Shown here one piece after another: positions 43,287 through 59,830 of a stretch of 64,000 bases of DNA; the first letter of the stretch is position 1, and each line of letters starts with the position of its first letter. The stretch spans positions 372,001-436,000 of the forward strand of contig MKVL01000025.1 in assembly GCA_001899205.1 (NCBI GenBank), given 5' to 3'. This DNA comes from Mesorhizobium sp. 65-26 (GTDB lineage: Bacteria > Pseudomonadota > Alphaproteobacteria > Rhizobiales > Rhizobiaceae). The notes below the pieces were generated by a model, which had not been told where the DNA came from, ran no database searches, and worked only from the letters and a program-made list of their open reading frames with translations. The position numbers were made by a program, and so were the translations under genes.

Positions 43287-44723
43287 TCAGGCCAGGTGGC
43301 CTGCCTTGCGCAGGATCGCTTCCCACTGCGTCTGCACTTTCTCGCACGCGGTCTTGGCATCCTGCGTGCCGATCAGCGCGGCGTTGAACTCGACATTCAT
43401 GACGTCGTTGAGCTGGAAGAATTCCGGGATCAGCGAGGTCGGTATCGTGTCGGCGGTCTCGATCGCGGTCAGCGCGTCCTTCAGGTAGGGGAACTTCGCC
43501 ACCAGTTCGGGATCGTTGAAGGCGGAGCTGCGGTTGGCGTCGATGTTGTACTTCTCGATCGAGTAGCGGTTCACCGCCTTGTTGGTGATCCAGGTCAGCG
43601 CCAGCCAGGCAGCATCTTTCTTGGCCGGGTCGATGTTCTTCGGAATGCCGACGCCCCAGCCGCCCTGGATGGCGCGCGGCGACTTGCCGTCGCCCGACGG
43701 CACCGGTGTCGTCCCCGTCTTGTCCGCGACCATCGAGTTCTCGCTGTTGAGGATCGGGCCGGCGATCGTCGACCAGAAGATCATCTGCGCGATCTTGCCC
43801 GTGGAGAAGCCGTCGACGTTCTCGGCGAAGCCGTATTTGGTCACGTTCTTCGGCGCGTAGGGCAAGAGGTCGATCAGCATCTGCAGCGCTGCGATGCCTT
43901 CCTTCGAATTTACCTGCGGCTTGAAGTTCTTTTCCTTGGCGCTGCCGGTCATCAGCGCTCCGCCGGTGGTGATGAAGCGCGTGTACCAGTCGACCGCGGC
44001 AAGCGAGAAATCGTTGGCGCCGATGAACGAGCAGCCGGCGACGTCGTCGGTGTGCAGCTTCTGTGCCGCCGCCTTGAACTCGTCCCAGGTCTTGGCCGGC
44101 TGCAGGCCGGCGGCGTCGAAGAGATCCTTGCGGTAGAAGTAGATGACCGACCCTGAATGCAGGCCGGGGATGCCGTATATGTCCTTGCCCTTGCCGACGG
44201 CGCCGGACGCCATGTCGAAGATGCCGACGTTCTTAAGGGCTGCCGGGATGATGTCGTTGAAATCCCAGTCCGGCGGCGTCTTGGCCGGATCGTCGATATA
44301 GGCGTTGAGCTGTTCGTAATAGCCGCCGCCCACCTGCTGCGTGGTCAGGAAGCCGAGATACTCTATGAGGTCGAACGAGGATTTCTCGGCCTTCAGGTTC
44401 TGGAGTGTCTTCTCGATCAGCGCGCCGAGCGCCGGCGAGGTGATCTCCAGCTCCATGCCGGTTTCCTCGGCGAATTTCGGCGCCATGTCGGCCAGCGCGC
44501 GGTGGTCGTTCTCGTCGCCGGTCATCAGGATGTTGATCTTGGTGCCGGCGTATTTCTTCATGTCGAAGCCCGCCGCCTGAAGCGCCTCTATGCCGCCCAG
44601 GCCGGTAAAGGCCGCCGCGAGGCCAAGCACGCCGGCGCGCTGCATCAGGTCACGGCGGGTAAGGCCGCCGGAAAGGGTGGCGACGTCTTCGCCAGGCCGT
44701 GGGTGATGCGTCTTTCCCTTCAT
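43287..44723 (-). CDS. Sugar ABC transporter binding protein (family 1) with Tat signal
   Basis: Periplasmic binding protein of 478 residues, first gene of the transporter operon. ATG 44723 is preceded by GGGGAGAGAG. A Tat signal is visible (LTRRDLMQRAGVLGLAAAF). The SBP_bac_1 domain follows (INILMTGDENDHRALADMAP, YGIPGLHSGSVIYFYRKDLF). Two LacI-type palindromes lie 83-117 nt upstream. Family 1 proteins bind sugars, oligosaccharides or glycerol phosphates; the ligand here is unknown. Confidence 0.94.
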   Translation of the reverse strand: MKGKTHHPRPGEDVATLSGGLTRRDLMQRAGVLGLAAAFTGLGGIEALQAAGFDMKKYAGTKINILMTGDENDHRALADMAPKFAEETGMELEITSPALGALIEKTLQNLKAEKSSFDLIEYLGFLTTQQVGGGYYEQLNAYIDDPAKTPPDWDFNDIIPAALKNVGIFDMASGAVGKGKDIYGIPGLHSGSVIYFYRKDLFDAAGLQPAKTWDEFKAAAQKLHTDDVAGCSFIGANDFSLAAVDWYTRFITTGGALMTGSAKEKNFKPQVNSKEGIAALQMLIDLLPYAPKNVTKYGFAENVDGFSTGKIAQMIFWSTIAGPILNSENSMVADKTGTTPVPSGDGKSPRAIQGGWGVGIPKNIDPAKKDAAWLALTWITNKAVNRYSIEKYNIDANRSSAFNDPELVAKFPYLKDALTAIETADTIPTSLIPEFFQLNDVMNVEFNAALIGTQDAKTACEKVQTQWEAILRKAGHLA

Positions 44724-44805
44724 GTCTCTCTCCCCAGTTTTTCTTTGTTCCGCCGACGGGACTGCATCGGTCTGGCAGGCAGACTGCATCCGCTCAAACA
44801 AATAG

Positions 44806-44840
44806 TCAATCGATTGAGCAGACATCACTCAATCGATTGT
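44806..44840. promoter_or_regulatory. Paired LacI-type palindromic operators
   Basis: TCAATCGATTGA (44806-44817) and TCAATCGATTGT (44829-44840) are two copies of one palindrome, centres 23 bp apart. They lie between the divergent transporter operon (start 44723) and the SDR-LacI pair (start 45010). Near-identical sites recur at 54056-54089. The encoded LacI regulator at 45813 is the likely ligand. Confidence 0.75.
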
Positions 44841-45812: not shown

Positions 45813-46832
45813 TTGAGTCCACCCAGTCCGCCGGGCCGCGCCACCTTGAAGGACATAGCCCGTGCCGTCGGCGTGGACGTGTCGACGGTTTCCAAGGTGC
45901 TGAACGACGGCGGCATCAGCGTGCGCGCCCAGACCCGGCAGGCCATCATCGACGAGGCGAACCGGGTCAACTACCGGCCTCATGCGCTGGCGCGCAATCT
46001 TCGCACCCAGCGCACTGGCGCGCTCGGCATCCTGCTGCCTGACCTCACCAACCCGATCTATGCCGAGACCGTGCACGGCGCGATGCGCCAGGCCGAGCAG
46101 TCCGGTTATGTGACGCTGATCGCCGAGGTTTCCGACGAGCGGCGGTCGGCTGCGGCCTATATGCGGCTGGTCAGCGAGCGCCGCATCGACGGGCTGATCA
46201 TCGCGGTCAGCGCCGAGACGGAAGAGATGATGGCGGCCATCGAGGCCAATCCGGTGCCGCACGTTTTCGTCAACCGACGCTCGTCCATCGGCCGCAGCGT
46301 CACCGTCGACGATCAGGCATCGGGCCGGCTCGCCGCGCAAACCCTGATCGATGCCGGCCACCGGCATCTCGCCTTCATCGGTTCCGCTCCGGAACTCGAC
46401 ACCTCGCGGCGCCGCCGTCAGGGTTTCGTCGAGGTCTGCGCGGCCGCCGGCCTGGCTCCGGTTCTGGATATTGTCGGTCCGGTCTCCCGGCGGGGCGGTT
46501 TCGATGCCATGCACAAGCTGCTCGATGCGACACGTCGTCCTACCGGCGTCTTCGCCTTCAACATGCTGGTCGGCATAGGCGCGCTCGCCGCCGCGCGTGT
46601 CCGTGGCGTGCGTGTTCCCGACGACATCTCGGTAATAAGCCTCGACGGCGAGGACGCCATCTTCACCGCGCCACCGCTCACCGCCATCGCCACGCCGCTG
46701 GCCGAGATGGGCGCGCGCGCTGTGGTCGAGCTCGAGGCCATGATAGACGGCCGCGAGCCGCAGGACGTGGTGATCGACATCCCGCCCAAGCTGATCTATC
46801 GAGAATCCGTCGCGGGCCCGCCTAACGAATAA
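45813..46832 (+). CDS. LacI-family regulator of the catabolic regulon
   Basis: Repressor of 339 residues starting at TTG 45813. The HTH and hinge are clear (TLKDIARAVGVDVSTVSKVL, RAQTRQAIIDEANRVNYRPH, ALARNLRTQRTGALGILLPD), followed by the sugar-binding domain (GRSVTVDDQASGRLAAQTLI, FNMLVGIGALAAARVRGVRV). The long open frame upstream belongs to another frame of the SDR gene. Palindromes of the LacI class lie near both this operon and the one at 54 kb, so it probably acts on all of them. The effector is unknown. Confidence 0.93.
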   Translation: MSPPSPPGRATLKDIARAVGVDVSTVSKVLNDGGISVRAQTRQAIIDEANRVNYRPHALARNLRTQRTGALGILLPDLTNPIYAETVHGAMRQAEQSGYVTLIAEVSDERRSAAAYMRLVSERRIDGLIIAVSAETEEMMAAIEANPVPHVFVNRRSSIGRSVTVDDQASGRLAAQTLIDAGHRHLAFIGSAPELDTSRRRRQGFVEVCAAAGLAPVLDIVGPVSRRGGFDAMHKLLDATRRPTGVFAFNMLVGIGALAAARVRGVRVPDDISVISLDGEDAIFTAPPLTAIATPLAEMGARAVVELEAMIDGREPQDVVIDIPPKLIYRESVAGPPNE

Positions 46833-46881: not shown

Positions 46882-48093
46882 TCAGGCTCTAGGTCCGGCC
46901 ACCACGCCCTTGTCGTGCAGGCGTCGGATCTCGGCATCGCCGAACCCGAGCTCCGCCAGGATAGCGTCCGTATGCTCGCCGGGCAGCGGCGCGCGCGCGG
47001 CCGGAACCCTTGCGGCAGACGAGAAATCAAGCGGCGAGGCCGGGGTCAGAAGCGGGCCTATTCCCGGATGGTCGACCCTTGAGAACATCGGATTGCCGGT
47101 GGAGCAGCGGGCATCCTCCGCCAGCAATCGGCCGAAGTTCTGGTAGGGCCCCCAGGCCGCGCCGGCTCCGTTGAGCGCCTCCTGGACGAGAGCGAAATCG
47201 CGCTTGGCGAACCAGGGCGCCAGCGCGGCGGCGACGGCGTCGCGCGCGGCGAACCGCCCGCCTTCGGTGGTCAGGTCGGCCCCCGTCGATCTTGACAGCG
47301 CGTCGACATCGATGCCGGTCGCCTGCAACAGCGCTGCCCATTGGCGGCTGGTCAGGCCGACGACCATCACGCGCCGTCCGTCGGCGGTGACGAAGTCGCG
47401 TCCGAACGCGCCGTAAAGGCAGTTGCCGTCCTTCTCCGCCGCCCCGCCAAGTTCGGCTTGCGCCAGTCGGCCGAGATTCGCCGTCATGGCGAGCGCGACG
47501 TCGGACAACGCGAGCTTCACCAGCGATCCCTGGCCGGTGCGGGCACGGTGCCTGTCGGCTGCCAGGACGCCGACGGCGGCCAGTTCGCCCATGGCGATGT
47601 CCCAGGCCGGCAGGACGCTGTTGGTCGGCTCGGTGGAACCGCGCGGGCCGGTGATTTCGGCGAACCCCGTGGCGACATTGACCGTGTAGTCGACTTCGCT
47701 CGATCCGTCCGGATTGCCGGTCATCGCCACCATGATGAGATCGTCGCGCCGCCGCTTCAGCGCTTCGTAGGCCAGCGCGCCGCGCGGTGGAAGATTGGTC
47801 AGGAAGATGCCCTTGTCCGGTCCTGGCCGCGCGATCAGTCTGGCGACGATATCCTGGCCTTCCGGGGACCGCAGATCGATCTGGATCGAGCGCTTGCCCT
47901 TGTTCATGCCGGCCCAGAACAGGCTCCTGCCGTCCGCCGCCAGGGGCCAGCGACCCTGGTCGAGGCCGCCGCCAATCTGGTCGAAGCGGATGACGTCCGC
48001 GCCGAGTTGGGCAAGCGTCATGCCGCCCAGCGGCGCCGCGACGAAGGCCGAACCTTCGACGACGCTGAGCCCGGAAAGAATGCCGCCATTCAT
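46882..48093 (-). CDS. Class III CoA-transferase (CaiB/BaiF family)
   Basis: Predicted enzyme of 403 residues moving CoA between carboxylic acids. The family start pattern is LSGLSVVEGSAFVAAPLGGM with GADVIRFDQIGGG, and the catalytic Asp is probably that in LPAWDIAMGELAAVGVLAAD. ATG 48093 overlaps the hotdog-hydratase gene by 4 nt. Last gene of an eight-gene leftward operon. The pairing with a double-hotdog hydratase recalls mesaconyl-CoA and itaconyl-CoA handling, but donor and acceptor cannot be told. Confidence 0.92.
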   Translation of the reverse strand: MNGGILSGLSVVEGSAFVAAPLGGMTLAQLGADVIRFDQIGGGLDQGRWPLAADGRSLFWAGMNKGKRSIQIDLRSPEGQDIVARLIARPGPDKGIFLTNLPPRGALAYEALKRRRDDLIMVAMTGNPDGSSEVDYTVNVATGFAEITGPRGSTEPTNSVLPAWDIAMGELAAVGVLAADRHRARTGQGSLVKLALSDVALAMTANLGRLAQAELGGAAEKDGNCLYGAFGRDFVTADGRRVMVVGLTSRQWAALLQATGIDVDALSRSTGADLTTEGGRFAARDAVAAALAPWFAKRDFALVQEALNGAGAAWGPYQNFGRLLAEDARCSTGNPMFSRVDHPGIGPLLTPASPLDFSSAARVPAARAPLPGEHTDAILAELGFGDAEIRRLHDKGVVAGPRA

Positions 48094-49103
48094 GCGAAGA
48101 CCCCGATCAGGCGCCAATCGAGCACGTCGCTCGGCGTCCCGTCCAGCCCCGTTGCCCGAGCGCGACAGCGCAGATGCGCAAGACCGCCCCCGCCGGACAG
48201 CGCTTCGAGGCGTTCCACGGCGATGGCACAATGCACGGTGTCACCCTCCCGCACCGGGCCGAGATGGTCACAGCCGTCCCAGCCGAGTATGGTGACCAGT
48301 GCCGGGAAGGCGCGCGTTACTTGCGCCGCCGCGAGCCCGATCGTGTGGCCGCCATAGACGAGCCGTTGTCCGTCACGCGAGCCGTCGTGATGGATCGTCG
48401 CCAGGTTCATCGTCAGCCGTGCCAGTTCCGGCGCGCTGCTCACCAGATCGCCACCGGCGAGCTGAAAGGCCATCCCCTGGCGCAGGTCGTGGAAATGCGG
48501 GCCGGGAACCTGCGCGCGATAGGTCGCCAGGTCCCAGCCGCGGATGGCCGCCGCGATTTCCGTCGTCTCCATGTCTCGCTGGGGCGGGTCGGGCTCGCCT
48601 TGGACGCCGATGCTGTCGGCCCGGCGGGCGGGCAGCATGGCACAGCGGTGGAAGTCGAGGACCGGTCTGCCTTGCTGGTCTGCGGTGGCTATCCGCATGG
48701 TCACCAGGCCGCGCGGCGGCCGTCCCGGCTTGGCCGATGCCGGCCGCAGGCCGACGATGGTGGTAACCGTCCTCAGGCTGTCGCCGATGGCTGGCGCGCG
48801 GCGGAAAACCAGGCCTCGGTAGAAAAGGTTGGCGATGGCTTCCCGCGTCACAAGGGTCGACTGGCCGATCGCCACGTCCCAGACGAAGGCTGGCGCCGCG
48901 AAAGGCGCGGGTTGTCCTGTCACGGACGCGGAAAGCTCGGCATCGAAGGCAAGTCTTAGCCTGCCGCCGACGATGGCATGATGGGCTGCGGCCATCCCGT
49001 CCGTCAGGCGCATCGTCGGCGCGCCCTCGAAGCGGTCGCCGATCTTCAAATCGTCATAGAACGGTCCGTCGATCTCGGTCGCGCGAAAGGAGGTGTCTGC
49101 CAT
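48090..49103 (-). CDS. Double-hotdog acyl-CoA hydratase (MaoC/mesaconyl-CoA hydratase-like)
   Basis: Protein of 337 residues built of two hotdog folds. The N-terminal half shows the FAS1-like dehydratase pattern (DDLKIGDRFEGAPTMRLTDG, FVWDVAIGQSTLVTREAIAN) and the C-terminal half a MaoC-like segment (YGGHTIGLAAAQVTRAFP, LGPVREGDTVHCAIAVERLE). Fused hotdogs of this length include mesaconyl-C4-CoA hydratase of the 3-hydroxypropionate cycle. It probably hydrates an enoyl-CoA made by the neighbouring CoA-transferase. Substrate is inferred only. Confidence 0.87.
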   Translation of the reverse strand: MADTSFRATEIDGPFYDDLKIGDRFEGAPTMRLTDGMAAAHHAIVGGRLRLAFDAELSASVTGQPAPFAAPAFVWDVAIGQSTLVTREAIANLFYRGLVFRRAPAIGDSLRTVTTIVGLRPASAKPGRPPRGLVTMRIATADQQGRPVLDFHRCAMLPARRADSIGVQGEPDPPQRDMETTEIAAAIRGWDLATYRAQVPGPHFHDLRQGMAFQLAGGDLVSSAPELARLTMNLATIHHDGSRDGQRLVYGGHTIGLAAAQVTRAFPALVTILGWDGCDHLGPVREGDTVHCAIAVERLEALSGGGGLAHLRCRARATGLDGTPSDVLDWRLIGVFA

Positions 49104-49127: not shown

Positions 49128-49412
49128 TCAGCCGCGGCCGGGATCGGACGGATGCGCGGCCAGCGGTTTCACCACCACTTTCAGCCAGGGATAGAAGGGC
49201 AGCGACGAGATGGCCTCGTGAAGCGCCGTCGCGTCCGGCGCTTCCCATATGCCGAAATTCGCCCACCGGCCCGGCTGGCGCCAAAGCCGCCGTATGGTGC
49301 CGGCCGCGGCCAGTTCCCTGGCGCGCTTGCCCTCCGCCGCGATCAGCTCCGCCTTCTGCCGGGGATCGCCATCGGGCGGAAAGGTGACCTCTATCTCGAC
49401 CAGAAATTCCAT
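49128..49412 (-). CDS. Muconolactone delta-isomerase-like small protein
   Basis: A 94-residue protein matching the muconolactone isomerase family through its whole length: MEFLVEIEVTFPPDGD, LAAAGTIRRLWRQPGRWANF, SSLPFYPWLKVVVKPLAAHP and the terminal HPSDP. Known members isomerise muconolactone to enol-lactone in the catechol branch of the beta-ketoadipate route. No catechol dioxygenase or muconate cycloisomerase gene lies here, so it may isomerise another butenolide. GGAGGAG precedes ATG 49412; the start overlaps the end of the E1 alpha gene by 22 nt. Confidence 0.85.
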   Translation of the reverse strand: MEFLVEIEVTFPPDGDPRQKAELIAAEGKRARELAAAGTIRRLWRQPGRWANFGIWEAPDATALHEAISSLPFYPWLKVVVKPLAAHPSDPGRG

Positions 49413-50425
49413 CGCTGGTCTCCTCCGGCCGAGTGGGCGCCGATATGCGACAGGATCTCCCCGAGATCAGGCGCCGGCGATTCCAGCACCTCGGCGGTCG
49501 CCCGCTCGACCGCTTCGCGCGTCTCCGCCTTCAGCGGCTCCAGGCCGCCGGCGGCGAGAACGCCTTCCTCGATCAGCCGGCTGGCGAAGATGTCGATCGG
49601 ATCGCGCTTCAGCCACGCGTCGAGCTCGCCGGCCGGGCGGTAAGTCGCGGGGTCGGAGCGTGAGTGGCCGGAATAGCGATAGGTCTTCATCTCGATCAGC
49701 GTCGGACCCTCGCCCCGGCGCGCTCTCGCGACCGCCGCTGCCATTGCCTCGGCGACCTTGTCGGCATCCTGTCCATCGACGATGACGCCGGGCATGTTGT
49801 AGCTCGTCGCGCGAATGGCGATGTCCTCGACGGGCGTCGAAAGCTGGATGCGGGTGTATTCGCCGTAGAGGTTGTTCTCGCAGACGAAGACCACCGGAAG
49901 CTTGCGGATGGCGGCGAAATTGAGCGCTTCGTGGAAGGCGCCGATATTGGCCGAGCCGTCGCCGAAGATCGACACGGCGATGCGGTCCTTGCCGCGCGCT
50001 CGCGCCGCCATGGCGGCGCCGCAGGCAATGGGCAGGCCCGCGCCGATGATCGCGGCGGTGGGCAGCAGCCCGACCTCGGGCTCGACCAGATGCATCGAGC
50101 CGCCGAGGCCGCCGGCGCAACCGATGACGCGGCCGCAGATCTCGCCGATGACACCGGCCGGCGTGACGCCGAGCGCCAGCGCGTGCCCATGGCCGCGATA
50201 GGTGCAGGTGACGATGTCGTCAGGATCGATCGAACGGGCGATGCCGACCGAAACCGCTTCCTGGCCGCTGGCGAGATGCGTGCTGCCGCGGACATGGCCT
50301 TCCGCGAACAGTTTCTGGATGCGGTCCTCGACCGAGCGGATCTCGATCATGCGCGTAAGCTGCTCCAGCCGGTTGGCCAGCGCCTCGCGCCGGGCGAGCG
50401 GGGAGTTGGAATTGGAGATGGTCAT
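49391..50425 (-). CDS. TPP-dependent dehydrogenase E1 alpha subunit (AcoA/PdhA type)
   Basis: Subunit of 344 residues. The TPP motif is GDGSANIGAFHEALNFAA ending in VCENN, and the phosphorylation-loop region reads TYRYSGHSRSDPATYR. ATG 50425 (MTISNSNSPLARRE) overlaps the E1 beta gene by 4 nt; the longer frame is a shadow. The family cleaves 2-oxoacids or, in acetoin dehydrogenase, acyloins, and passes the acyl group to a lipoyl domain. No E2 or E3 gene is in the operon; a free lipoyl protein is encoded at 55672. Confidence 0.94.
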   Translation of the reverse strand: MTISNSNSPLARREALANRLEQLTRMIEIRSVEDRIQKLFAEGHVRGSTHLASGQEAVSVGIARSIDPDDIVTCTYRGHGHALALGVTPAGVIGEICGRVIGCAGGLGGSMHLVEPEVGLLPTAAIIGAGLPIACGAAMAARARGKDRIAVSIFGDGSANIGAFHEALNFAAIRKLPVVFVCENNLYGEYTRIQLSTPVEDIAIRATSYNMPGVIVDGQDADKVAEAMAAAVARARRGEGPTLIEMKTYRYSGHSRSDPATYRPAGELDAWLKRDPIDIFASRLIEEGVLAAGGLEPLKAETREAVERATAEVLESPAPDLGEILSHIGAHSAGGDQRWNFWSR

Positions 50426-51429
50426 GCTGCTTTCCTCCACCAGGGCAGGGGTGGCTTGTTGGTCGACACCAGCGCCGAGACCTGCTCGGCGACATAGGCC
50501 GGGCTCGGCAGGAAGCGGGCTTCGAGAACGCCGCTGTAGGGAACTGGCGCTTCGGGAAGGGTGATGCGGTGCGGCGGCGCCTTCAACGAACCGAAGGCTT
50601 CGGTGGCGATCGTGGCGGCCACTTCGCCGCCCCAGCCGCTGCCGGGTGGCGCTTCTTCCAGCGTCACGAGGCGGCCGGTGCGCGCGACCGATTCCATCAC
50701 CGTCTTGCGATCCCATGGCCACAGCGTCAGCAGGTCGATCACCTCGATGTTGGCGCTGCTGGCCTCGGCCGCTGCCAGGGCCACGCGCCGCATCGCCCCG
50801 CAGGTCACCAGCGTCGCGTCGCTGCCGGGCCGCGCGATCTCGGCCTTGCCGAGCGGGATGCGATAGCTCTTGTCGAACTCGTATTCCTCGCGCTCGGCAT
50901 AGAGGATGCGCGGTTCGAGGATGACCACCGGATCGGGATCCTCGATCGCCGAGCGCAGCAGGCCGTATGTGGTGCGGGCATTGCTGGTCACCGCCACCTT
51001 CAGGCCCGGCGTGCCCCGGAACCAATGGTCGAGCATCTGCGAATGCTGGCATCCGAAACCCTGACCGGCCCCAGCCGAGGCGCGCACCACCAGCGGTGTC
51101 GTGAGCTTGCCGCGCGACAGGTAGCGCATCGTCGCCGCCTGTGTCGTCAACTGGTCGAGCGCCACGCCGATGAATTCGATGAACATCATCTCGACGACCG
51201 GCTTCAGGCCGCAGACCGCCGCGCCCACGGCGGCGCCCATGAAAGCCATTTCGGAGATCGGCGTGTCGATCACACGTTCCGGACCATGCGCGGCCAGAAG
51301 CCCCTCCGTCACCTTGAACGGGCCGCCCGCGGCGGCGATGTCCTCGCCCATGACGATGACGCTGGGGTCATCGCTCATCGCATCGTCAAGCGCCCGCAGG
51401 ACCGCTTGCCGTATCCATATCTTCGCCAA
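50422..51429 (-). CDS. TPP-dependent dehydrogenase E1 beta subunit (AcoB/PdhB type)
   Basis: Subunit of 335 residues with the transketolase pyrimidine domain (VIVMGEDIAAAGGPFKVTEG, TPISEMAFMGAAVGAAVCGL) and the transketolase C-terminal domain (IEVIDLLTLWPWDRKTVMES). It forms an alpha2-beta2 E1 with the next gene product. The conserved Glu for TPP activation is in TPISEMAF. A 100-bp gap with an inverted repeat (51504-51525) separates it from the VOC gene upstream. Confidence 0.94.
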   Translation of the reverse strand: MAKIWIRQAVLRALDDAMSDDPSVIVMGEDIAAAGGPFKVTEGLLAAHGPERVIDTPISEMAFMGAAVGAAVCGLKPVVEMMFIEFIGVALDQLTTQAATMRYLSRGKLTTPLVVRASAGAGQGFGCQHSQMLDHWFRGTPGLKVAVTSNARTTYGLLRSAIEDPDPVVILEPRILYAEREEYEFDKSYRIPLGKAEIARPGSDATLVTCGAMRRVALAAAEASSANIEVIDLLTLWPWDRKTVMESVARTGRLVTLEEAPPGSGWGGEVAATIATEAFGSLKAPPHRITLPEAPVPYSGVLEARFLPSPAYVAEQVSALVSTNKPPLPWWRKAA

Positions 51430-51503
51430 GGTACAGACCTCCCATTACGCTGTCTTCGGATCGTCGGTGCAGGCGGCGAAACTATCGCAGCCGTCGAAAT
51501 TTG

Positions 51504-51525
51504 GAAACGTTTTTATTTGCGTTTC
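51504..51525. promoter_or_regulatory. Inverted repeat in the gap before the E1 genes
   Basis: GAAACG (51504-51509) and CGTTTC (51520-51525) flank a T-rich 10-nt spacer. It lies between the VOC stop and the E1 beta start. It could be an internal regulatory site or a weak hairpin; the half-site GAAACG also occurs in the elements at 63536 and 63832. Confidence 0.35.
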
Positions 51526-51529
51526 GACA

Positions 51530-52003
51530 TCATTCCGGCTTGTAACTCCCGAAGGCTTGCGCGCTTTCGATGAGCTCGACACGGAACCCGTCGGGATCGA
51601 TCACATAAACCGCCTTGCCCCCTTTGTTGGGGCCGATGGTTGGCGTCACCGGCGCGGAAACGGATTGCACGCCGAGCGCGGTCAGCTTGTCGTGGAAAGC
51701 CGTGAGGTCGTCGACGTTGAAGGCAATGTGGCCGTTGCCGACATTGCCGTTACGCATGTCGACCGGCACCTGCTCGACATTGCGATATTCGAGCAGTTCC
51801 AGGCAGACGTCCGTCCCCGGCAGGCGCAGGATCGCGCCGTGCAGGTCGACATCGGGATAGCCGACGAGCTCGCCGATATAGGGCGCGCGCGGATTCCACT
51901 GGAAGGCCAGCTCGAAGCCCAGCACGTCGCGATAGAAGGCTATGGAGCGCTCAAGCGACCGTACAGTGAAGCCCGTGTGGTGTGCTTTGGTGATCCTTGC
52001 CAT
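51530..52003 (-). CDS. VOC-superfamily (glyoxalase/dioxygenase-fold) protein
   Basis: Metal-dependent VOC protein of 157 residues with two beta-alpha-beta-beta-beta modules. Probable metal ligands are His9 in KAHHTGFTVR, the Glu of LELLEYRN, His in GNGHIAFNVDD and Glu in DGFRVELIES. ATG 52003 follows the SDR gene after 35 nt; the longer frame is a shadow. Members isomerise, epimerise or cleave small oxygenated substrates. A second VOC gene lies at 61062; the two are related but not copies. Confidence 0.88.
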   Translation of the reverse strand: MARITKAHHTGFTVRSLERSIAFYRDVLGFELAFQWNPRAPYIGELVGYPDVDLHGAILRLPGTDVCLELLEYRNVEQVPVDMRNGNVGNGHIAFNVDDLTAFHDKLTALGVQSVSAPVTPTIGPNKGGKAVYVIDPDGFRVELIESAQAFGSYKPE

Positions 52004-52038
52004 GGCTATCTCCGGCGCTGGATGAGGCGCATCTGTCG

Positions 52039-52836
52039 TCAGGCGGTGAGGTAGCCGTCGTCGCACATCACGACATGGCCGGTGACCAGCTCCGATGCGT
52101 CGCTGGCGAGGAAGACGGCCGTGCCGATCAGTTCGCGCGGCAGGCCGAGGCGGGGCCGCAGCATGCGCGCCTTGATGAAGTCGGCGGTGATCGAGCTGGT
52201 CGATGCCGCCGCCTTGGTCAGCGGCGATTCCATGAGCGTCGGTCCGATGCCGTTGACCCGCACGCCGCGGTCGCGCCACTCCAGCGCCAGCGCGCGGGTC
52301 ACCTGCAGCACGCCGCCCTTGGAGGCCAGATAGGCGCTGGCCCACGGATAGGCGCTGAACGACCCGATCGAGGCGATGTTGATGATGCTGCCCTTGCGCT
52401 GGTCGAGCATGACGCCGCCGAAGGCCTGGCAGCAGAAATACGTGCCCTTGAGGTTGAGATCGAGGATGAAGTTGAACTTGTCCTCGGGGAAGTCCTCGGC
52501 GGGGCTGCGGAAGGCCGACCCGGCGCTGTTGACCAGTATGTCGACATGGCCGTGGTCGCGGCGGACCGTTTCGGCCAGCGCGAAACACTGATCCCTGCGC
52601 GTCACGTCGAGTTCCGCGACCATGGCCTTGCCGCCTTGTTCGGCGATGGTGACGCGGGTCGCCTCGGCGCCAGCCACGTTGACGTCCGCGACGATGACGG
52701 TGACCCCGAGCTGCGCGTAGCCGATCGAGATTGCCGCGCCCAGCCCGCTGCCGCCGCCGGTAACCACCGCCACGCGGCCGGAAAGATCGAAAAGGCCGGC
52801 CGCGTAGTTGGCTGGAACTGTCGGTTCTTCGCTCAT
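52039..52836 (-). CDS. Short-chain dehydrogenase/reductase
   Basis: Classical SDR of 265 residues with TGGGSGLGAA, LVNSAGSAFR and catalytic YLASK. It lies 16 nt after the enolase-superfamily gene, so the two products probably act in successive steps: dehydration of a sugar acid and oxidation of the resulting 3-deoxy-2-keto acid is one known pattern. Confidence 0.93.
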   Translation of the reverse strand: MSEEPTVPANYAAGLFDLSGRVAVVTGGGSGLGAAISIGYAQLGVTVIVADVNVAGAEATRVTIAEQGGKAMVAELDVTRRDQCFALAETVRRDHGHVDILVNSAGSAFRSPAEDFPEDKFNFILDLNLKGTYFCCQAFGGVMLDQRKGSIINIASIGSFSAYPWASAYLASKGGVLQVTRALALEWRDRGVRVNGIGPTLMESPLTKAAASTSSITADFIKARMLRPRLGLPRELIGTAVFLASDASELVTGHVVMCDDGYLTA

Positions 52837-52852
52837 CGAGCTTCGTCCCTCG

Positions 52853-53986
52853 TCAATTCAGGATGTGGTCTGGATCCTGATGCGGCTGGCTCAGCGCCCA
52901 TTCGCGGTTTAGCATGTCGCCGAACCCCGGCTTCGACGGCAGCGGCTTCATCAGCCCGCCGGCGATGATCTCCGGCTGGACGAGGCTGTCGGCATAAGGG
53001 TCGACGCCGCTCCACGGCACGCCCCATTCGACCGGCTTGTCGGAGAAGCCCCACGCGCTGAACACCTGGCTGTGCACATGCGCGAACATATGCGGGCCGA
53101 AATCCACGCCGGCCGCAAGGCATTCGTCGATGATGGCGCGGCCTCCGGTGATGCCGCCCATGCAGGTCAGGTCGACGCGCACGCGATCGACCGACCCCGC
53201 CATGATCAGCGCTTCCGGATAGTAGGAGCCGCCTTGCTCGTCGCCCTGCCAGATCGGCATGGGCACGCGCTTGCGCAGCTCGGCGAGCTTCCTGGCGTTG
53301 CCGGGTGGGAAGATGTCCTCGATGCAGCCCATGTCGAGGTCGCCGATGCGGTTGGCGTAGTCGGCGGCGGAATCGACGTCCGAGAACATCCAGACGAGGT
53401 CGGTGCCGAGCCATGCATCCGGCGCGTTCCTGCGCGCGGCGCGCAACCGCGCTTCCGATTCATCGAGCGTCACGCCCATCGGCGCCTTGAACCGCCGCCA
53501 TCCCTCGGCATAGAGGCCCTTGACCTGCTCACCGATCTTCTGCGGGTTCATCAGCGCGGGTGGGTAGCCGATGATCGCGGTCGCGGGCATCGGCGCCGTC
53601 TTGCCGCCGAGGAACTCGGCGATCGACTTGTCCGCCATCCTGGCCGCGACGTCCCAGGCGGCGAGATCGACCTGCGACAGGGCGCGCAGGCCGACGCCCG
53701 CGCTGTGCGAGCCATAGGTCCGTCCCTTGGCTGTCTTGAAGGTCTTTTCGCGGTCGGCGATGTCGGTGCCGACATAGACCGGCGCGATGCTCTTGCGGAT
53801 CTGTTCGGCGCAGGCGCCGTCGCGCGTCAGCGTGAAGGACCAGCCCTCGTGGCCGGATTGCGTGCGCAGCCGCACCACCACGAATTCCCGGTGGTTCATC
53901 ACCCAGTCGCCGAAGATCACCGGCGCCGGCAACTGGCCCTGAATGGTGGCGACGCTGATGTCGACGATAGCAGAAGGACTAGGCAT
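52853..53986 (-). CDS. Enolase-superfamily enzyme (MR/MLE family), head of the CoA-pathway operon
   Basis: Enzyme of 377 residues. The N-terminal cap (residues 1-125) and barrel are visible, with candidate metal or catalytic residues in RRFKAPMGV, GTDLVWMFSDVD, GCIEDIFPPGN and GDEQGGSYYPEAL. The usual KxK motif is replaced by KAP, so it differs from both MR/MLE proteins at 10-12 kb. ATG 53986 has GGGAGGGGA before it. LacI-type palindromes lie 70-103 nt upstream. Probably dehydrates a sugar acid; substrate unknown. Confidence 0.9.
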   Translation of the reverse strand: MPSPSAIVDISVATIQGQLPAPVIFGDWVMNHREFVVVRLRTQSGHEGWSFTLTRDGACAEQIRKSIAPVYVGTDIADREKTFKTAKGRTYGSHSAGVGLRALSQVDLAAWDVAARMADKSIAEFLGGKTAPMPATAIIGYPPALMNPQKIGEQVKGLYAEGWRRFKAPMGVTLDESEARLRAARRNAPDAWLGTDLVWMFSDVDSAADYANRIGDLDMGCIEDIFPPGNARKLAELRKRVPMPIWQGDEQGGSYYPEALIMAGSVDRVRVDLTCMGGITGGRAIIDECLAAGVDFGPHMFAHVHSQVFSAWGFSDKPVEWGVPWSGVDPYADSLVQPEIIAGGLMKPLPSKPGFGDMLNREWALSQPHQDPDHILN

Positions 53987-54055
53987 TCCATCCCCTCCCA
54001 AGGAGTCCGGACGATCCCGGAGCCTTCGTCACCATAGCGAGCGCAACTCTCTTGG

Positions 54056-54089
54056 TCAACCGATTGATCAGTTAAAGTCAAACGATTGA
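54056..54089. promoter_or_regulatory. Paired LacI-type palindromic operators, second location
   Basis: TCAACCGATTGA (54056-54067) and TCAAACGATTGA (54078-54089), centres 22 bp apart, differ from the sites at 44806-44840 only at position 5 or at an end. They lie between the divergent starts at 53986 and 54228, so both operons should respond to the same LacI repressor. Confidence 0.75.
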
Positions 54090-54227
54090 CAAGATTTTCT
54101 TGATTGCCTATCGTGCCGTCAATGTTGGGGTGTGGAGGCGCTTGGCGGCCGGTGTTCGGTGTCGCGCGACGCGGACGCGGCGATGCTGCCTCGAGGGTGG
54201 CGACGTCCGCGTCGCGAAGGGGTTCGG

Positions 54228-55397
54228 ATGGGTTCGATCAGTCTTAGAAAAGTCGGAAAGACTTACGGCGCCGTCGCCGCCGTCCGGGGCGTCGACCTGG
54301 AGATCGGCGATGGCGAGTTCGTCGTCTTCGTGGGGCCGTCCGGATGCGGCAAGTCCACCTTGCTGCGCATGATCGCCGGGCTGGAATCGATAAGCGCGGG
54401 CGAGATCGCCATAGACGGCAAGGTGATGAACGAGGTGTCGCCGCGCGATCGCGACATCGCCATGGTCTTCCAGAGCTACGCGCTTTATCCGCAGATGACG
54501 GTGCGCGAGAACATCGCCTTCGCGCTGGAACTGCGCAAGGTGTCGAAGGCGGAGATCGCGCAGCGCGTCGACGAGGCGGCGCGCATCCTGGACCTCAGTG
54601 AATTGCTCGGCCGCAAGCCGCGTGAACTCTCGGGCGGCCAGCGGCAGCGTGTCGCCATGGGGCGGGCGATCGTGCGCGACCCGGCGGTGTTCCTTCTCGA
54701 CGAGCCGCTCTCCAACCTCGACGCCAAGCTGCGCGTCCAGCTTCGCGCGGAACTCGGCCGCCTGCACGCCCGGCTCGGCGTGACCACCATCCACGTCACC
54801 CATGACCAGGTCGAGGCGATGACGCTGGGCAGCCGCGTTGCCGTGTTCTCGCGCGGCTCCCTGCAGCAATACGATACGCCGCATACGCTCTACCACGCGC
54901 CGGCCAACATCTTCGTCGCCGGTTTCATCGGCAGCCCGGCGATGAACTTCCTGGAAGCGCGGGTGGTCGAGAAGGCTTCCGGAGGCCTGTTGGTCGCCGT
55001 CGGCCGGGGCCGGTTCACGGTCACGCCACGGTCGGACGCGCACGGCCTGGCGCCGGGTGACGCGGTGCTGGTCGGCGTCCGTCCGGAGCATCTTTCCCTG
55101 CGGCATGCCGGTCAGGCCGAGACCGGCATCGAGGCGCAGGTCGAACTGGTCGAGCATCTCGAACCGGAGTCCTTCATCGGTGTCGCGCCGTCCGACCCGG
55201 CCGTTGTGATCCGCACGGCCGACGATTATGCGCCCACCTCAGGCGCCGACCCGGCCGAGCGGGTTCGTCGGGAAGCACGCCTTATCGTGGCGCGCGTTCC
55301 CTCAAATGCGCTGCCACCGCGTGGCGCCGGGCTTGAACTCTGCGTCGATGGCCGGAGGGCTCATCTCTTCGACATGTCCAGGGGAGTGGCGCTGTGA
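54228..55397 (+). CDS. Carbohydrate ABC transporter ATP-binding protein (MsmK/UgpC type)
   Basis: ATPase of 389 residues with Walker A GPSGCGKST (about residues 37-45), Q-loop VFQSYALYPQMTV, signature LSGGQRQRV, Walker B VFLLDEPLSNLDAKLRV and a C-terminal TOBE/OB regulatory domain. ATG 54228 gives MGSISLRKVGKTYG; the upstream open frame has no similarity. No permease or binding protein is adjacent; the MalFG-type importer at 41498-44723 lacks an ATPase and shares the same operator motif, so this is its likely partner. Confidence 0.94.
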   Translation: MGSISLRKVGKTYGAVAAVRGVDLEIGDGEFVVFVGPSGCGKSTLLRMIAGLESISAGEIAIDGKVMNEVSPRDRDIAMVFQSYALYPQMTVRENIAFALELRKVSKAEIAQRVDEAARILDLSELLGRKPRELSGGQRQRVAMGRAIVRDPAVFLLDEPLSNLDAKLRVQLRAELGRLHARLGVTTIHVTHDQVEAMTLGSRVAVFSRGSLQQYDTPHTLYHAPANIFVAGFIGSPAMNFLEARVVEKASGGLLVAVGRGRFTVTPRSDAHGLAPGDAVLVGVRPEHLSLRHAGQAETGIEAQVELVEHLEPESFIGVAPSDPAVVIRTADDYAPTSGADPAERVRREARLIVARVPSNALPPRGAGLELCVDGRRAHLFDMSRGVAL

Positions 55398-55671
55398 TGG
55401 GCAGTGGTTTTCCGGCCCGCGTCGCCTCCGCGCCCGCGCATTGCCCCGGCGGTGACAGTGACAGCGGCGCCTTGTGGCCGAACGGTGGATATCCGGTACG
55501 GCAAGGTGCGTTTCAGAGTCGATTTTCCAAAGGGATCATGCGCAAAATCAAGGTGTTACAGCGTCCCGTGAAACCGGAAGGGGCCGGGTGCGCCGTAGCG
55601 CGTTCGCGTGCCCGCCGGCCATGCTCCGGCGAGGCCCACCCAACCCTTGCCTCGGATACGGAGAACTGACC

Positions 55672-55908
55672 ATGCGTTCCACCCTCAAGATGCCAAAGGT
55701 CGGCGATGCCGTCGACGAAGTCGTCATCAGCGAAATACAGGTGCAGCCAGGCACTCGGGTGACGGAGGGGCAGACCCTCTTCGTCGTCGAGACCGACAAG
55801 ACGCAGGTGGAGGTCCCCGCGCCATTCGCCGGCACGGTCGCCGAGATCCTGATCGCGGTCGGCGACGATGTCAGGACCGGCGCGCCGACGCTGGTGCTCG
55901 AGGTCTGA
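55672..55908 (+). CDS. Free-standing lipoyl (biotinyl/lipoyl attachment) domain protein
   Basis: A 78-residue protein consisting only of a lipoyl domain. The attachment Lys is residue 43 in VVETDKTQVEVPAP, and the symmetric second half (GTVAEILIAVGDDVRTGAPT) is complete. In normal 2-oxoacid dehydrogenases this domain is part of E2 together with an acyltransferase, which is absent. It is encoded 1 nt before a MaoC gene, opposite an operon with E1 alpha and beta, so it likely accepts the E1 product. ATG 55672 follows GGAGAAC. The 274 bp before it hold only a 91-residue open frame without similarity. Confidence 0.88.
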   Translation: MRSTLKMPKVGDAVDEVVISEIQVQPGTRVTEGQTLFVVETDKTQVEVPAPFAGTVAEILIAVGDDVRTGAPTLVLEV

Positions 55909-55909
55909 C

Positions 55910-56401
55910 ATGCCCAGGGTTCATTCGGCCCGTGACGAGAGGTTCGGCGGCTATCTCGACGATTTCGAGATCGGCGAGGTGTTCAGGCACTGGCCGGGCA
56001 AGACCGTCACCGAGGCCGATGACCATCTGTTCTGCCTGCTGACCATGGCCGCGAGCCCGCTGCATATCGATCGCCATTTCGCGGCGACCGAAATGGCTCA
56101 CGGCCGCAATGTCGTGGTCGGCACCTACATCTACTCGCTGCTCCTCGGCATGAGCGTGCCCGACATCTCCGGGCGCGCCGTGGCCAATCTCGGTCTCAGC
56201 GACCTGCGGCATCTGGCGCCGCTGTTCCACGGCGACACGCTCTACGGCGAGACGGAGGTTCTCAACCGCCGCCACTCGGCGTCACGCCCCGGTGAAGGCA
56301 TCCTCACCGTCCGCACGGACGGCTTCAACCAGGACCGGCTCAAGGTCTGTACGTTCACGCGCTCGGTCCTGCTTCCGGTGCGCCAGGGAAAGGATGCATG
56401 A
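55910..56401 (+). CDS. MaoC-like hotdog dehydratase/hydratase
   Basis: Single-hotdog protein of 163 residues with the (R)-specific hydratase pattern FEIGEVFRHWPGKTVTEADD, then SPLHIDRHFAATE and LFHGDTLYGETEVLNRRHSA. It starts 1 nt after the lipoyl gene and overlaps the CoA-transferase gene by 4 nt. It probably adds water to, or removes it from, an enoyl-CoA, in step with the transferase. Confidence 0.91.
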   Translation: MPRVHSARDERFGGYLDDFEIGEVFRHWPGKTVTEADDHLFCLLTMAASPLHIDRHFAATEMAHGRNVVVGTYIYSLLLGMSVPDISGRAVANLGLSDLRHLAPLFHGDTLYGETEVLNRRHSASRPGEGILTVRTDGFNQDRLKVCTFTRSVLLPVRQGKDA

Positions 56402-57639
56402 TGGAACAGGCCACGGCGCGCGAAACCGACGGATCGGACCACGGAGCCCTTCGGGGTATTCGCGTCGTCGAGCTCGCGACCGTGGTCGCCGGGCCCGGTG
56501 CCGGCCGCTATCTCGCCGATTTCGGCGCCGAGGTCATCAAGGTCGAGGGACCGGGCGGTGATCCGACCCGCCGCATGGGCTGGACAGGCGAGGGCGAGGC
56601 CGATTCCTATTTCTGGAAGCTCGTCAATCGCAACAAGCAGGCGGTCGTGCTCGACCTCAAGACGGAGGACGGCAAGAACAGCCTGTGGTCGCTGCTGCTC
56701 GACGCCGACGTGCTGATCGAGAACATGCGCCCTGGCAAGCTCGAGGCGCTTGGTTTCGGTCCCGAAGAGCTGCTGCGCCGCAACCCGAAGCTCGTCATCC
56801 TGCGCGTCACCGGCTTCGGCCAGGACGGCCCCTATGCCCTGCATCCAGGCTTTGCCACCATCGCAGAGGCGATGAGTGGTTTTTCCGGCCTTCTCGGCGA
56901 GGCCGACGGCCCGCCGCTCTTGCCGCCCATCGCCATGACCGATGAGGTGACGGCGCTCGTCGGCGCCTTCGCCACCATGGTGGCCCTGCGCCACGCAGAG
57001 CGCACCGGAGAAGGGCAGACGATCGACGTCAACCTGCTCAACTCCATGTTTCAGATCATGGGGCCGCTGCCGTCCGCTTACGCTCACATGGGCTACCTGC
57101 AGCCACGGCTCGGCGCCGGAATTCCCTACACCGTTCCGCGCGGCACCTATCGTTGCGCCGACAAGGTTTGGGTGGCGATCTCAAGCTCTTCCGATTCCGT
57201 CGCGCGTCGCCTGCTGGTTCTCATCGGCCTTGGCGACGACGAGCGCTTCTCGTCCTTTCAGGCGCGCAGCCGCAACCGTGACGCCCTGGAAGCCTATGTC
57301 GCCGCCTGGGTCGCGGAGCGGTCGTCGGAGGAGGTGCTGCGCGAGTTCCGCCGCGTCGACGCCGCGATCGCCAAGGTGCTCGACATGCGCGACATTTTCG
57401 CCGACGAGCATTTTCGCGCACGCGGCATGATCGCCGAACTGGACGGCGTCGTGATGCAGAATGTGGTTGCCGGCCTGTCGAGGACGCCGGGCCGCCTGCG
57501 TCATCAGGGACGCCCGTTCGACGCCGACACCAAGGCGGTGCTCGCGCGTTTCGCGGCAAAGAAGACAGGAGCATCGCGGGCCGGGAAAGCGAAGCCAGCC
57601 GGATCGTCTGCCAAGGATACCTCCGGCAAGGGTACCTGA
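56398..57639 (+). CDS. Class III CoA-transferase (CaiB/BaiF family), second copy
   Basis: Enzyme of 413 residues. It shows RVVELATVVAGPGAGRYLAD, FGAEVIKVEGPGGDPTR, NRNKQAVVLDLKTEDGK and the catalytic Asp in AMTDEVTALVGAFATMVALR. The C-terminus ends in a Lys/Ala-rich tail of about 30 residues. It is only distantly like the transferase at 46882, which suggests two different acids or two steps. It converges on the broken ligase gene. Confidence 0.93.
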   Translation: MMEQATARETDGSDHGALRGIRVVELATVVAGPGAGRYLADFGAEVIKVEGPGGDPTRRMGWTGEGEADSYFWKLVNRNKQAVVLDLKTEDGKNSLWSLLLDADVLIENMRPGKLEALGFGPEELLRRNPKLVILRVTGFGQDGPYALHPGFATIAEAMSGFSGLLGEADGPPLLPPIAMTDEVTALVGAFATMVALRHAERTGEGQTIDVNLLNSMFQIMGPLPSAYAHMGYLQPRLGAGIPYTVPRGTYRCADKVWVAISSSSDSVARRLLVLIGLGDDERFSSFQARSRNRDALEAYVAAWVAERSSEEVLREFRRVDAAIAKVLDMRDIFADEHFRARGMIAELDGVVMQNVVAGLSRTPGRLRHQGRPFDADTKAVLARFAAKKTGASRAGKAKPAGSSAKDTSGKGT

Positions 57640-57712: not shown

Positions 57713-59057
57713 TCAGACCGGCGAAAGATTCCGCCGCAAGAGCTTGCCGTTGGCACTGCGCGGCAGGGCCGGCACGAAGAACACCTGCTTGGGGCGCTTG
57801 TAGGCGGCCAGCCGCTCCGTCGCCAGCGCTGCGATGTCATCGGCGCTGACATCGGCGCCGTCCTTGCGCACCACGAAGGCGGCGATCACCGAGACGTCGT
57901 CGCGCACGCGATGCTCCGCCACGGCGATCTCGGCAACGCCGGGGCAGGGGGCCAGCGCTGCCTCGACCTCGAGCGGGGAGACACGGAAGCCGCCGGCGTT
58001 CATCAGGTCGTCGGCGCGGCCGTGGTACCAGAGGTAGCCGTCCTCATCGAAGGCGGCGAGGTCGCCCCCGGCGAACCAGTCGCCGTGGAAAACGCGCTCG
58101 TCCTCGTCCGGTCGCCGCCAGTAGCCGCGCATCAGGCCGGCGTCGCCGCGATGGATGGCGAGAAGGCCGATCTCCCCGGCCGGAAGCGGTTCGGCCGGGC
58201 CGGACACCGGCAGTATCGCGATCCGCCGGCCGCGTTGCGGCATGCCGGGGCTGCCGGGCCGGATCGGCATGCCTTCCCGGTTGGAGACGAAGGTCGAGCA
58301 TTCGCTCATGCCGAAGGCCTCGTAGATCTCGCGGCCGGTCGCCATGCGCCACGCGTCCAGGATCGCCGGGCTCAGGGCTTCGCCGGCGGCAAGCCCATGC
58401 CGCAGCGTCCAGGCCGACGCCGAGCGTGTAGCTCCAGTTGAAGGCGCCCGCATGCAGCATCACGTCGCCGGCGGTCAGCCTCTGCCAGTCGCCATGCATG
58501 GGCACGCGTCCGAGCGCGGTCCGATGGGCATGGACGACGCCTTTCGGCCGCGTGCTGGTGCCGGAGGTGTAGATCATGTAGGCCGGCGCCTCGGCCTCGG
58601 TGTCGGCATAGCCGGCCGGCGGCGATGCCTTGAGCCGGCCGATCGCCGTTTCGTCGAGAATCCGGCAGCTGACGGGAACCGCCGCGACCGCCAGCGATCC
58701 GACCTGGGCGATTGCCGCCGCCTGGCAATCGTCGAGCAGGAACGCGACCTCGGCTTCGGTCAATTGAGCTGAAACCGGTATCGGCACCAGGCCCGCGGCG
58801 ATGGCGCCAAAGAACAGCAGCGCGTAGTCGCTCGTGTTGGGCAGCCGCAGCATGATCCGGTCGCCGGGCCGGAGACCGGTCGCCAGCAGCCCGGCGGCAA
58901 CACGCCGGGTCGCAATATCGAGCTCGGCGTAGGTCCAGCGCTCGGCCTGCCGCGGCGCATCCACGTCGCTGACGACGATCAGCGCCGTCTTGTCCGGTGT
59001 CGCGCGCGTGGCTGGCTCCAGGCAGTGACGCGCCAGGTTGAAGTGCGTCGGGATCAT
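57713..59057 (-). pseudogene. Acyl/benzoate-CoA ligase (AMP-binding) broken by a deletion and frameshift
   Basis: The N-terminal part runs from ATG 59057 (MIPTHFNLARHC) in one frame and includes the P-loop YTSGTSTRPKGV and FNWSYTLGVG. The family continues in another frame from about 58420 (TLRHGLAAGEALS, YEAFGMSE, catalytic Lys region RSANGKLLRR) to the stop at 57713. In intact benzoate-CoA-ligase-like enzymes about 120 residues separate the P-loop Tyr from the AGE motif; here about 63 do, so some 60 residues (near 58416-58422) are missing together with the frame. The product is expected to be inactive. It overlaps the SDR gene upstream by 4 nt. A sequencing or assembly loss is the alternative. 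Confidence 0.8.
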
Positions 59058-59830
59058 GAGGCCGGCGTCTGCAACCACGTCGGTGCCTCGGGGATGCCCT
59101 GAACGATCCAGCCGCCGTCGACGACGATCGTCTGGCCGGTCATGTAGGTTGCCTCGTCTCCCGCCAGGAAGCGCACGGCGTTGGAGATCTCCTCCGTGGT
59201 GGCGAGCCTCTTCATCGGCACACGGCCGATCATCCAGCCTTCCTCGAGCGAGCCGTCGGCGAGGCCCTGGTCGATGAACTTGGTGCGCGTGAAGCCGGGC
59301 GCGACGGCGTTGACGCGGATGCCCGACGTCGCCACTTCCAGCGACAGCGCCCGCGTCAGCCCGAGGATACCGGCCTTGGCGGCGCAGTAGGCGCCGCGCC
59401 CCGGCAGGCCGACGAAGGCCGCCGTCGAGGCGATGCTGACGATGGAGCCGCCCTTGCCGCGCGCCACCATGCGCGGCACGGCCTCGGACGCGCACAAGAA
59501 CAGGCCGTTGAGATGCGTGGCGACGACGGCCGAAAAGTCGGCGAACGAAACCTTGCCCACGAGGCCGACGCGCTGGATGCCGGCATTGTTGACCAGTATG
59601 TCGATATGGCCGGCTCGCTCGTCGATGGTCTTGAAAGCGGCCGCGACGCTTGCCGGATCGGTGACGTCGGTCTCGATATGGACGATGCCTGCTCTGGGCT
59701 CGTCCGGCGGGTTCTTGTCCAGCGCGAAAACAGTCGCGCCGTCGGCCAGCAGACGTGTCGCGATGGCATCGCCGATGCCGCGCGCCGCGCCCGTGACCGC
59801 GGCGACCTTTCCGTCCAGCGACCGCGTCAT
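59054..59830 (-). CDS. Short-chain dehydrogenase/reductase
   Basis: Classical SDR of 258 residues with TGAARGIGDA, LVNNAGIQRVG and catalytic YCAAK. ATG 59830 is preceded by GGAGACC; the frame to 59944 adds no similarity. It lies 121 nt after the next SDR gene upstream and overlaps the ligase remnant by 4 nt. Confidence 0.93.
   Translation of the reverse strand: MTRSLDGKVAAVTGAARGIGDAIATRLLADGATVFALDKNPPDEPRAGIVHIETDVTDPASVAAAFKTIDERAGHIDILVNNAGIQRVGLVGKVSFADFSAVVATHLNGLFLCASEAVPRMVARGKGGSIVSIASTAAFVGLPGRGAYCAAKAGILGLTRALSLEVATSGIRVNAVAPGFTRTKFIDQGLADGSLEEGWMIGRVPMKRLATTEEISNAVRFLAGDEATYMTGQTIVVDGGWIVQGIPEAPTWLQTPAS

Follow-up and report, generated by a model that had tools for sequence, protein, structure and literature searches.

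Pyruvate dehydrogenase (PDH) and the branched-chain 2-oxoacid dehydrogenases are complexes of three components, E1, E2 and E3. The set of genes considered here comes from Mesorhizobium sp. 65-26 (contig MKVL01000025.1, here C25, positions 372,001 to 436,000; this stretch of 64,000 nucleotides is called the window). It resembles those complexes in the family to which its E1alpha and E1beta belong, in their motifs, and in a lipoyl domain that carries the sequence ETDK. It differs from them in three respects: no E2 core was matched with the set, its lipoyl domain is a separate protein of 78 amino acids, and its E1beta ends in a Trp-Trp tail. The set is of the 2-oxoacid dehydrogenase kind; since an E2 core was sought and not found with it, I do not class it as complete.

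Other known systems approach the arrangement from different sides. In the acetoin dehydrogenase (AcoA/AcoB/AcoC) loci of Paracoccus (L076 and L139), E1beta is about 48% identical to that of the window and the gene after the E1 pair bears the annotation acetoin dehydrogenase dihydrolipoyllysine-residue acetyltransferase, whereas here the lipoyl domain is alone. The AcoC-like protein of the Mesorhizobium genome itself appears to join lipoyl and hydrolase parts in one chain, while the window set has the lipoyl domain only. OdhA carries a transferase domain and borrows its lipoyl group; the window's E1 has a lipoyl protein of its own and no transferase. GcvH uses a shared E3, and LbpA, of sulfur oxidation, resembles GcvH in sequence and is linked to hdr-like genes. 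GcvH and LbpA are free carrier proteins like the window's (PMC6067878; PMC numbers here and below refer to excerpts of the papers), but the partner of the window's protein is an E1 dependent on thiamine pyrophosphate (TPP), and its sequence is that of an E2-type lipoyl domain. Its GCV_H score of 20.2 bits falls below the cut-off of 22.2, and its identity as GcvH was rejected on that ground. Archaeal single-domain lipoyl proteins consist of a lipoyl domain only, as here, and the excerpt of PMC3904984 gives no link between them and an E1 pair. E2, GcvH and LbpA are the carriers of lipoate named in the excerpt of PMC10332631. Among the papers listed by searches of the literature, whose coverage leaves out most subscription journals, none was seen to describe an E1 pair accompanied by a free lipoyl protein.

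A sequence-only reading of the window had picked out genes for E1alpha and E1beta and a 78-residue protein that is nothing but a lipoyl domain with Lys43, and matches to Pfam confirm all three (Table 1). E1beta and E1alpha match Transket_pyr/Transketolase_C and E1_dh over almost their full length, the start of E1alpha overlaps the stop of E1beta, and the pair has both the TPP motif and the His residues of lipoyl acylation. The lipoyl open reading frame (ORF), ETDKTQVEVPAP, sits inside an open frame of 148 amino acids and was aligned with its relatives in 16 rows; the domain is of the E2 type, with a modifiable Lys. Could it be biotinylated instead, as the same reading had allowed? Biotin carriers have the motif MKM. 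Copies of the protein in the clade described below have ETDK (26 of 27) or DTAK (one), which makes biotinylation unlikely, and the biotin carrier was rejected. A chance or decayed ORF was rejected as well, since the gene recurs in 27 of 30 loci with its Lys kept and is under purifying selection. The same selection acts on E1beta: NG86 estimates of dN/dS are 0.06-0.18 for the lipoyl gene and 0.06-0.15 for E1beta (six comparisons each).

Relatives come from one pattern-limited contig scan with E1beta, which gave at least 20 loci. Ten are 76-93% identical (Mesorhizobium, Devosia, other Rhizobiales and one metagenome-assembled genome, or MAG, labelled Alphaproteobacteria) and ten are 57-65% identical. 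Eight of the latter are labelled Actinobacteria or Nanopelagicales; the remaining two are MAGs labelled Alpha- and Betaproteobacteria, with near-identical genes. Near-identical clusters were seen throughout L072-L075, MAGs labelled Actinobacteria, Alphaproteobacteria and Betaproteobacteria, and some of these are likely mis-binned. CP015605 is the freshwater acI strain IMCC19121 (PMC5301498). Orthologs of E1beta (E<=1e-100) occur in 10 of 296 genomes of its class, CP015605 and nine others, and all nine of the others have E1beta, E1alpha and the free lipoyl gene in a row. In L066 the ATG of the lipoyl gene overlaps the E1alpha stop. Gene labels in relatives rest on tblastn with the window's genes or on reading of translations, unless Pfam is named.

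The window, the 20 relatives from the scan and the nine actinobacterial genomes give 30 E1beta sequences that form one clade (support 100/100 in the group table and 100/99 at the fork; in an earlier tree the group had 21 rows). The trees have long branches, and the comparison rows L025, L026, L049, L078 and L079, with L125-L127 in the larger tree, include residues past the natural stop. The sequence-only reading had suggested a survey of genomes for the same split set, and the set is there: a free lipoyl gene accompanies the E1 pair in 27 of the 30 loci, 26 directly and one (L068) by way of the neighbouring stretch L088. The three loci that lack the gene (L069, L071, L075) are cut contigs. It lies no more than 70 nt from E1 in 13 of the 27 (L060-L062, L066, L130-L138); the distance is 245 nt in L058 and 381 nt in L067. 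All 30 E1beta proteins have QHSQ, and GHS is present in 28 of 30 E1alpha, the two misses being partial matches. The equivalents of these His residues have been tied to reductive acetylation of the lipoyl group (PMC2663715).

The end of E1beta sets the clade apart. Trp-Trp occurs among the last 25 residues of 30 out of 30 clade proteins, as against 0 of 34 others (six of them from the distant lineage, f4, described below), and the tail is invariant in 20 aligned rows. The chain of L027, another locus of the same genome, does not end in an E1beta tail, because there a lipoyl domain comes after E1beta in the same chain. The site on the two-fold axis of E1 at which E2 docks is close to the C-terminus of E1beta. 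Crystal structures place the subunit-binding domain of E2 on that axis (PMC2663715), so that the Trp-Trp tail may replace or block the docking of E2.

Some of the partners of E1 are also nearly constant. Counts over the 30 loci are 29 for SDR proteins (a loose count, the family being broad), 28 for the enolase superfamily (MR-type), 21 for CoA-transferases, 20 for VOC proteins and 10 for HpcH lyases. By these counts, the near-constant core is a dehydratase-like protein, a dehydrogenase, E1alpha, E1beta and the lipoyl protein; the VOC protein, in only 20 of 30 loci, was rejected as a universal partner. The constancy of the dehydratase-like protein and the dehydrogenase beside E1 suggests that E1 takes as its substrate a 2-oxo (3-deoxy) acid supplied by the dehydratase.

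If E1 acylates the lipoyl protein, where is the E2? None was matched close to E1. An AcoC-type protein, one E3 and five full-length E2s, the short subunit-binding domain included, were taken from the same genome as tblastn queries; neither in the window nor in 20 relatives did they match anything but the lipoyl gene. Near E1 in 36 loci (the window, counted between 39 and 64 kb, and 35 others, 3.3-21 kb long), there were no matches to E2 cores, to the hydrolase part of AcoC or to E3 at E<=1e-5 over at least 40% of the query. As positive controls, the full-length AcoC query and several of those for E2 recovered their own source loci; the single E3 query came without such a control. The observation that the window encodes no acyltransferase domain or E3 thus stands, for E3 as the outcome of that one query, and the split set without E2 and E3 of its own holds across genomes, with 0 of 36 loci giving a match. 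A local E2 overlooked by eye was rejected on these tests.

E2 cores are found elsewhere. The genome has 10 places with an E2 core, and Pyr_redox_dim occurs at nine places elsewhere in it, none on contig C25. The nearest complete E2 is about 6.7 kb past the end of the window (C25:442695-443897), some 19 kb from E1beta. An E2 and E3 just outside the window, co-regulated with the set, would have spoken against the sequence-only reading. A complete E2 does exist there, but it adjoins an E1alpha and an E1beta of its own, and the 20-kb region around it holds no copy of the palindromes discussed below, so a co-regulated E2 beyond the window's end was rejected. At least two E2 cores lie outside the loci described here in all 20 genomes searched (the window's own, those of four of the 20 loci of the E1beta scan, and 15 more). 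CP015605, complete at 1.5 Mb, has two E2 cores. Its E1_dh matches are three in number: the E1alpha of the cluster, a frame of 1,225 amino acids in which an E2 core is present too, and one further match that is weak and partial. I take the long frame to be of the OdhA type.

A similar arrangement turns up in a distant lineage. A lipoyl profile search of 199 genomes of the window's order (E<=1e-16) gave a match in 99. Among the matches listed, ORFs shorter than 90 amino acids were found in six genomes, all of family f4 (1.3-1.4 Mb), and most of the other lipoyl frames are of at least 390 amino acids. The f4 genes run E1alpha, E1beta, lipoyl, with the lipoyl gene 0-51 nt from E1 and ETDK in six of six; four of the six loci were read gene by gene. 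The E1beta of f4 is distant, at 34-38% identity to that of the window. It lacks the Trp-Trp tail and in the tree falls outside the clade, with L029 and AcoB-like rows (weak support, long branches), so that E1 and a free lipoyl protein may have been brought together twice. Genes near the set in one f4 locus, L125, include those for GFO/IDH/MocA, GMC oxidoreductase, VOC, FrsA-like hydrolase and amidohydrolase proteins.

In the window, the lipoyl gene and E1 are in separate, divergent units. The sequence-only reading had placed a shared operator region between them, and this gains support from a pair of conserved 14-bp palindromes between the enolase and ABC-ATPase genes. The pair is present in seven of 11 loci scanned (the window, L056, L057, L059 and L063-L065, from a scan of the window and L056-L065). 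In the other four, L058 and L060-L062, the lipoyl gene is less than 250 nt from E1. With one mismatch allowed, the palindrome pattern has seven strand matches at four places, against 0.48 expected, and 0 of 100 shuffles reached seven. These shared palindromes support the view that, in the window, E1 and the lipoyl gene are regulated together. The fourth place, at 33737, is without explanation.

I propose that the lipoyl protein is a diffusible carrier of the cluster's E1 and is served by the housekeeping E2 and E3, a proposal to which I give an even chance of being right. A heterotetrameric E1 would decarboxylate a 2-oxo acid, which probably comes from the MR-type dehydratase and possibly by way of an SDR step. 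It would then reductively acylate the small, diffusible lipoyl protein, and not the tethered lipoyl arm of an E2 core. From this carrier the acyl group would be passed in trans to coenzyme A (CoA) by the catalytic domain of a housekeeping E2, and housekeeping E3 would reoxidise the dihydrolipoyl protein. The CoA ester would then be handled, where they are present, by MaoC, CoA-transferase and HpcH-type enzymes. Borrowing is the likeliest route to CoA because all 20 genomes searched keep E2 cores elsewhere. It was one of two routes offered by the sequence-only reading and is the better supported; the other, in which CoA-transferases accept the acyl group, is unsupported as a general rule, family III enzymes being nearby in only 21 of 30 loci. 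The succinyltransferase of OdhA reportedly (Hoffelder, in 2010) relies on lipoyl residues of AceF. In the PDH-ODH hybrid of Corynebacterium, lipoyl and catalytic parts act in trans between proteins (PMC7568260), as they would here, a precedent for borrowing.

There are points that weigh against this proposal. E2 cores elsewhere in a genome are permissive, not direct, support for borrowing, and the acyl group would be an unusual one for a housekeeping E2 to take. As substrates, free lipoyl domains are usually poor beside tethered ones. Lipoylation of Lys43 is predicted from the motif, and one clade copy (L135:9745-9987) has DTAK in place of ETDK. The lipoyl gene is 4-10 kb from E1 or on the next stretch, with other genes, in 12 of the 27 loci that have it, including the window, and the palindromes are missing from four of the 11 Rhizobiales-type loci scanned.

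Several alternatives may be considered. Perhaps E2 is dispensable: the set may be a dehydrogenase without a core, in which the lipoyl protein behaves like an acyl carrier protein, acyl-lipoyl rather than acyl-CoA is the intermediate used or passed on by enzymes of the cluster, and the Trp-Trp tail replaces the docking of E2. I consider this unlikely. Only a little less probable is that no CoA ester is made directly, the acyl-lipoyl from E1 being cleaved to a free acid that a CoA-transferase or ligase then activates. CoA-transferases of the acid-activating kind are common in the loci, a gene like those for acyl-CoA ligases (by eye) was matched in six of 20 scan loci, and a fused E1 in the same genome, without a PF00364 match, lies beside hydrolase-like (alpha/beta) and ligase-like genes (by eye). 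Such a route would waste the thioester. It is improbable that an enzyme of the cluster, a family III CoA-transferase or another protein, stands in for E2 and moves the acyl group from the lipoyl protein to CoA. CoA-transferases are nearby in 21 loci, and the lipoyl gene, in acI-type loci as in the window, has MaoC or CoA-transferase genes beside it, but family III enzymes use acyl-CoA donors, nine of 30 loci have no CoA-transferase nearby (two are contigs under 6 kb; L066 is cut about 1 kb upstream of E1), and among the families sought only E1, lipoyl, enolase and SDR are near universal.

It is very improbable that the pair is simply a second E1 for the complete E2 at C25:442.7-443.9 kb. The set to which that E2 belongs is also linked to an enolase-like gene (labelled by eye) and its E1beta, L025, neighbours the clade in the tree (99/76, with long branches). 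Against this reading stand the E1 pair that this E2 has of its own, the want of a palindrome copy in its 20 kb, and the other loci, where nothing near E1 matched an E2 core. I put least weight of all on a lipoyl protein that serves a different partner from E1 and might carry electrons or one-carbon units in the manner of GcvH or LbpA. Free lipoyl proteins with other functions do exist (PMC6067878), and in the window the gene is in a separate transcription unit 4.2 kb from E1. However, no more than 70 nt separate it from E1 in 13 loci of the clade and in six of six f4 loci, and its product is under the GCV_H cut-off.

The genes around the lipoyl protein and E1 are in keeping with a catabolic cluster (Table 1). 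On the minus strand the order is enolase-superfamily, SDR, VOC, E1beta, E1alpha, muconolactone-isomerase-family, a protein without a Pfam match, and family III CoA-transferase; on the plus strand it is ABC ATPase, lipoyl protein, MaoC-family protein and family III CoA-transferase. At 40.6-44.8 kb of the window there are genes for a solute-binding protein and a permease, and one of the SMP-30 family. Together the predicted functions point to a cluster that probably catabolises a sugar or sugar acid. Clusters of the acI type add genes for an HpcH/citrate-lyase-type enzyme, MaoC and a CoA-transferase, a set that resembles those for degradation of mesaconate or itaconate. At 57713-59070 (minus strand) of the window, a gene read by eye as one for an AMP-dependent acyl-CoA ligase is divided between two frames, seems to have lost a stretch and looks decayed; L058, L059 and L062 match both of its parts on one strand.

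Table 1. Genes and palindromes of the cluster, by position in the window
Feature	Position	Strand	Remarks
Third, weaker palindrome copy	44805..44818		At start of solute-binding-protein ORF (called 43287-44828, true start uncertain)
LacI-type regulator	45840..46832	+	Start approximate; labelled by eye from translation; L056 match 89% identical
Family III CoA-transferase, close in sequence to 2-methylfumaryl-CoA isomerase	46882..48120	-	PF02515 193 bits; TIGR04253 501 bits, cut-off 725
Protein without Pfam match	48090..49103	-	0 families at E<=0.001
Muconolactone-isomerase-family protein	49128..49412	-	PF02426 106 bits
E1alpha	49391..50425	-	344 aa; E1_dh 270.5 bits; GDG and GHS motifs retained
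E1beta (TPP-dependent dehydrogenase beta subunit)	50422..51429	-	335 aa; TTG start; Trp-Trp tail W330 W331
VOC/glyoxalase-family protein	51530..52009	-	PF00903 64 bits; start judged by eye
SDR dehydrogenase	52039..52836	-	Pfam
MR/MLE enolase-superfamily protein, probable sugar-acid dehydratase	52853..53986	-	Weakly similar to L-rhamnonate dehydratase
Operator-like palindrome GTCAACCGATTGAT	54055..54068		Invariant in 6 aligned sequences; present in L063
Operator-like palindrome GTCAAACGATTGAC	54077..54090		Invariant in 6 aligned sequences; L063 copy has one free-position base changed
ABC transporter ATPase, MalK-like	54225..55397	+	Pfam
Free-standing lipoyl-domain protein	55672..55908	+	78 aa; Lys43; PF00364 71.6 bits
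MaoC hydratase-family protein	55910..56401	+	Top NCBIfam match RipB/Ich, under cut-off; start judged
Family III CoA-transferase	56398..57639	+	PF02515 368 bits

The genome has 17 E1_dh matches, 14 of them above 160 bits, and several are beside transport genes (by eye). At L027:8333-10738 (contig C5), E1alpha, E1beta and a C-terminal lipoyl domain make up a single chain of about 800 amino acids, adjoined by an enolase-like gene and by a subunit-binding-domain protein whose transferase part is degenerate (by eye). The fused E1 mentioned above is an E1alpha/E1beta fusion at L026:7055-11806 (C25:200-220 kb), and its hydrolase-like and acyl-CoA ligase-like genes are in the same stretch, nowhere on which PF00364 is matched. 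VOC/glyoxalase-like genes (by eye) lie near two other E1 pairs (L028:7184-7717, L029:4688-5122), as in the window.

The window's own E1beta is rare. At E<=1e-100 it is matched in one of 297 genomes of the order, its own; for the phylum, with E<=1e-75, the count is 14 among 397 genomes, and the top foreign match is 52%. A search of plasmids with E1beta gave 80 records, all below 60% identity; with the enolase there were none, and with the lipoyl protein 13, of which eight are annotated as aceF or its product and five are unannotated under the match.

The arrangement is conserved in Rhizobiales and Actinobacteria and appears again in a distant E1 lineage. It points to a route for sugar acids of which the literature searched gave no description. 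E2 is the textbook core with its swinging arm, and an E1 pair that has a free carrier makes the need for tethering testable with three small genes.

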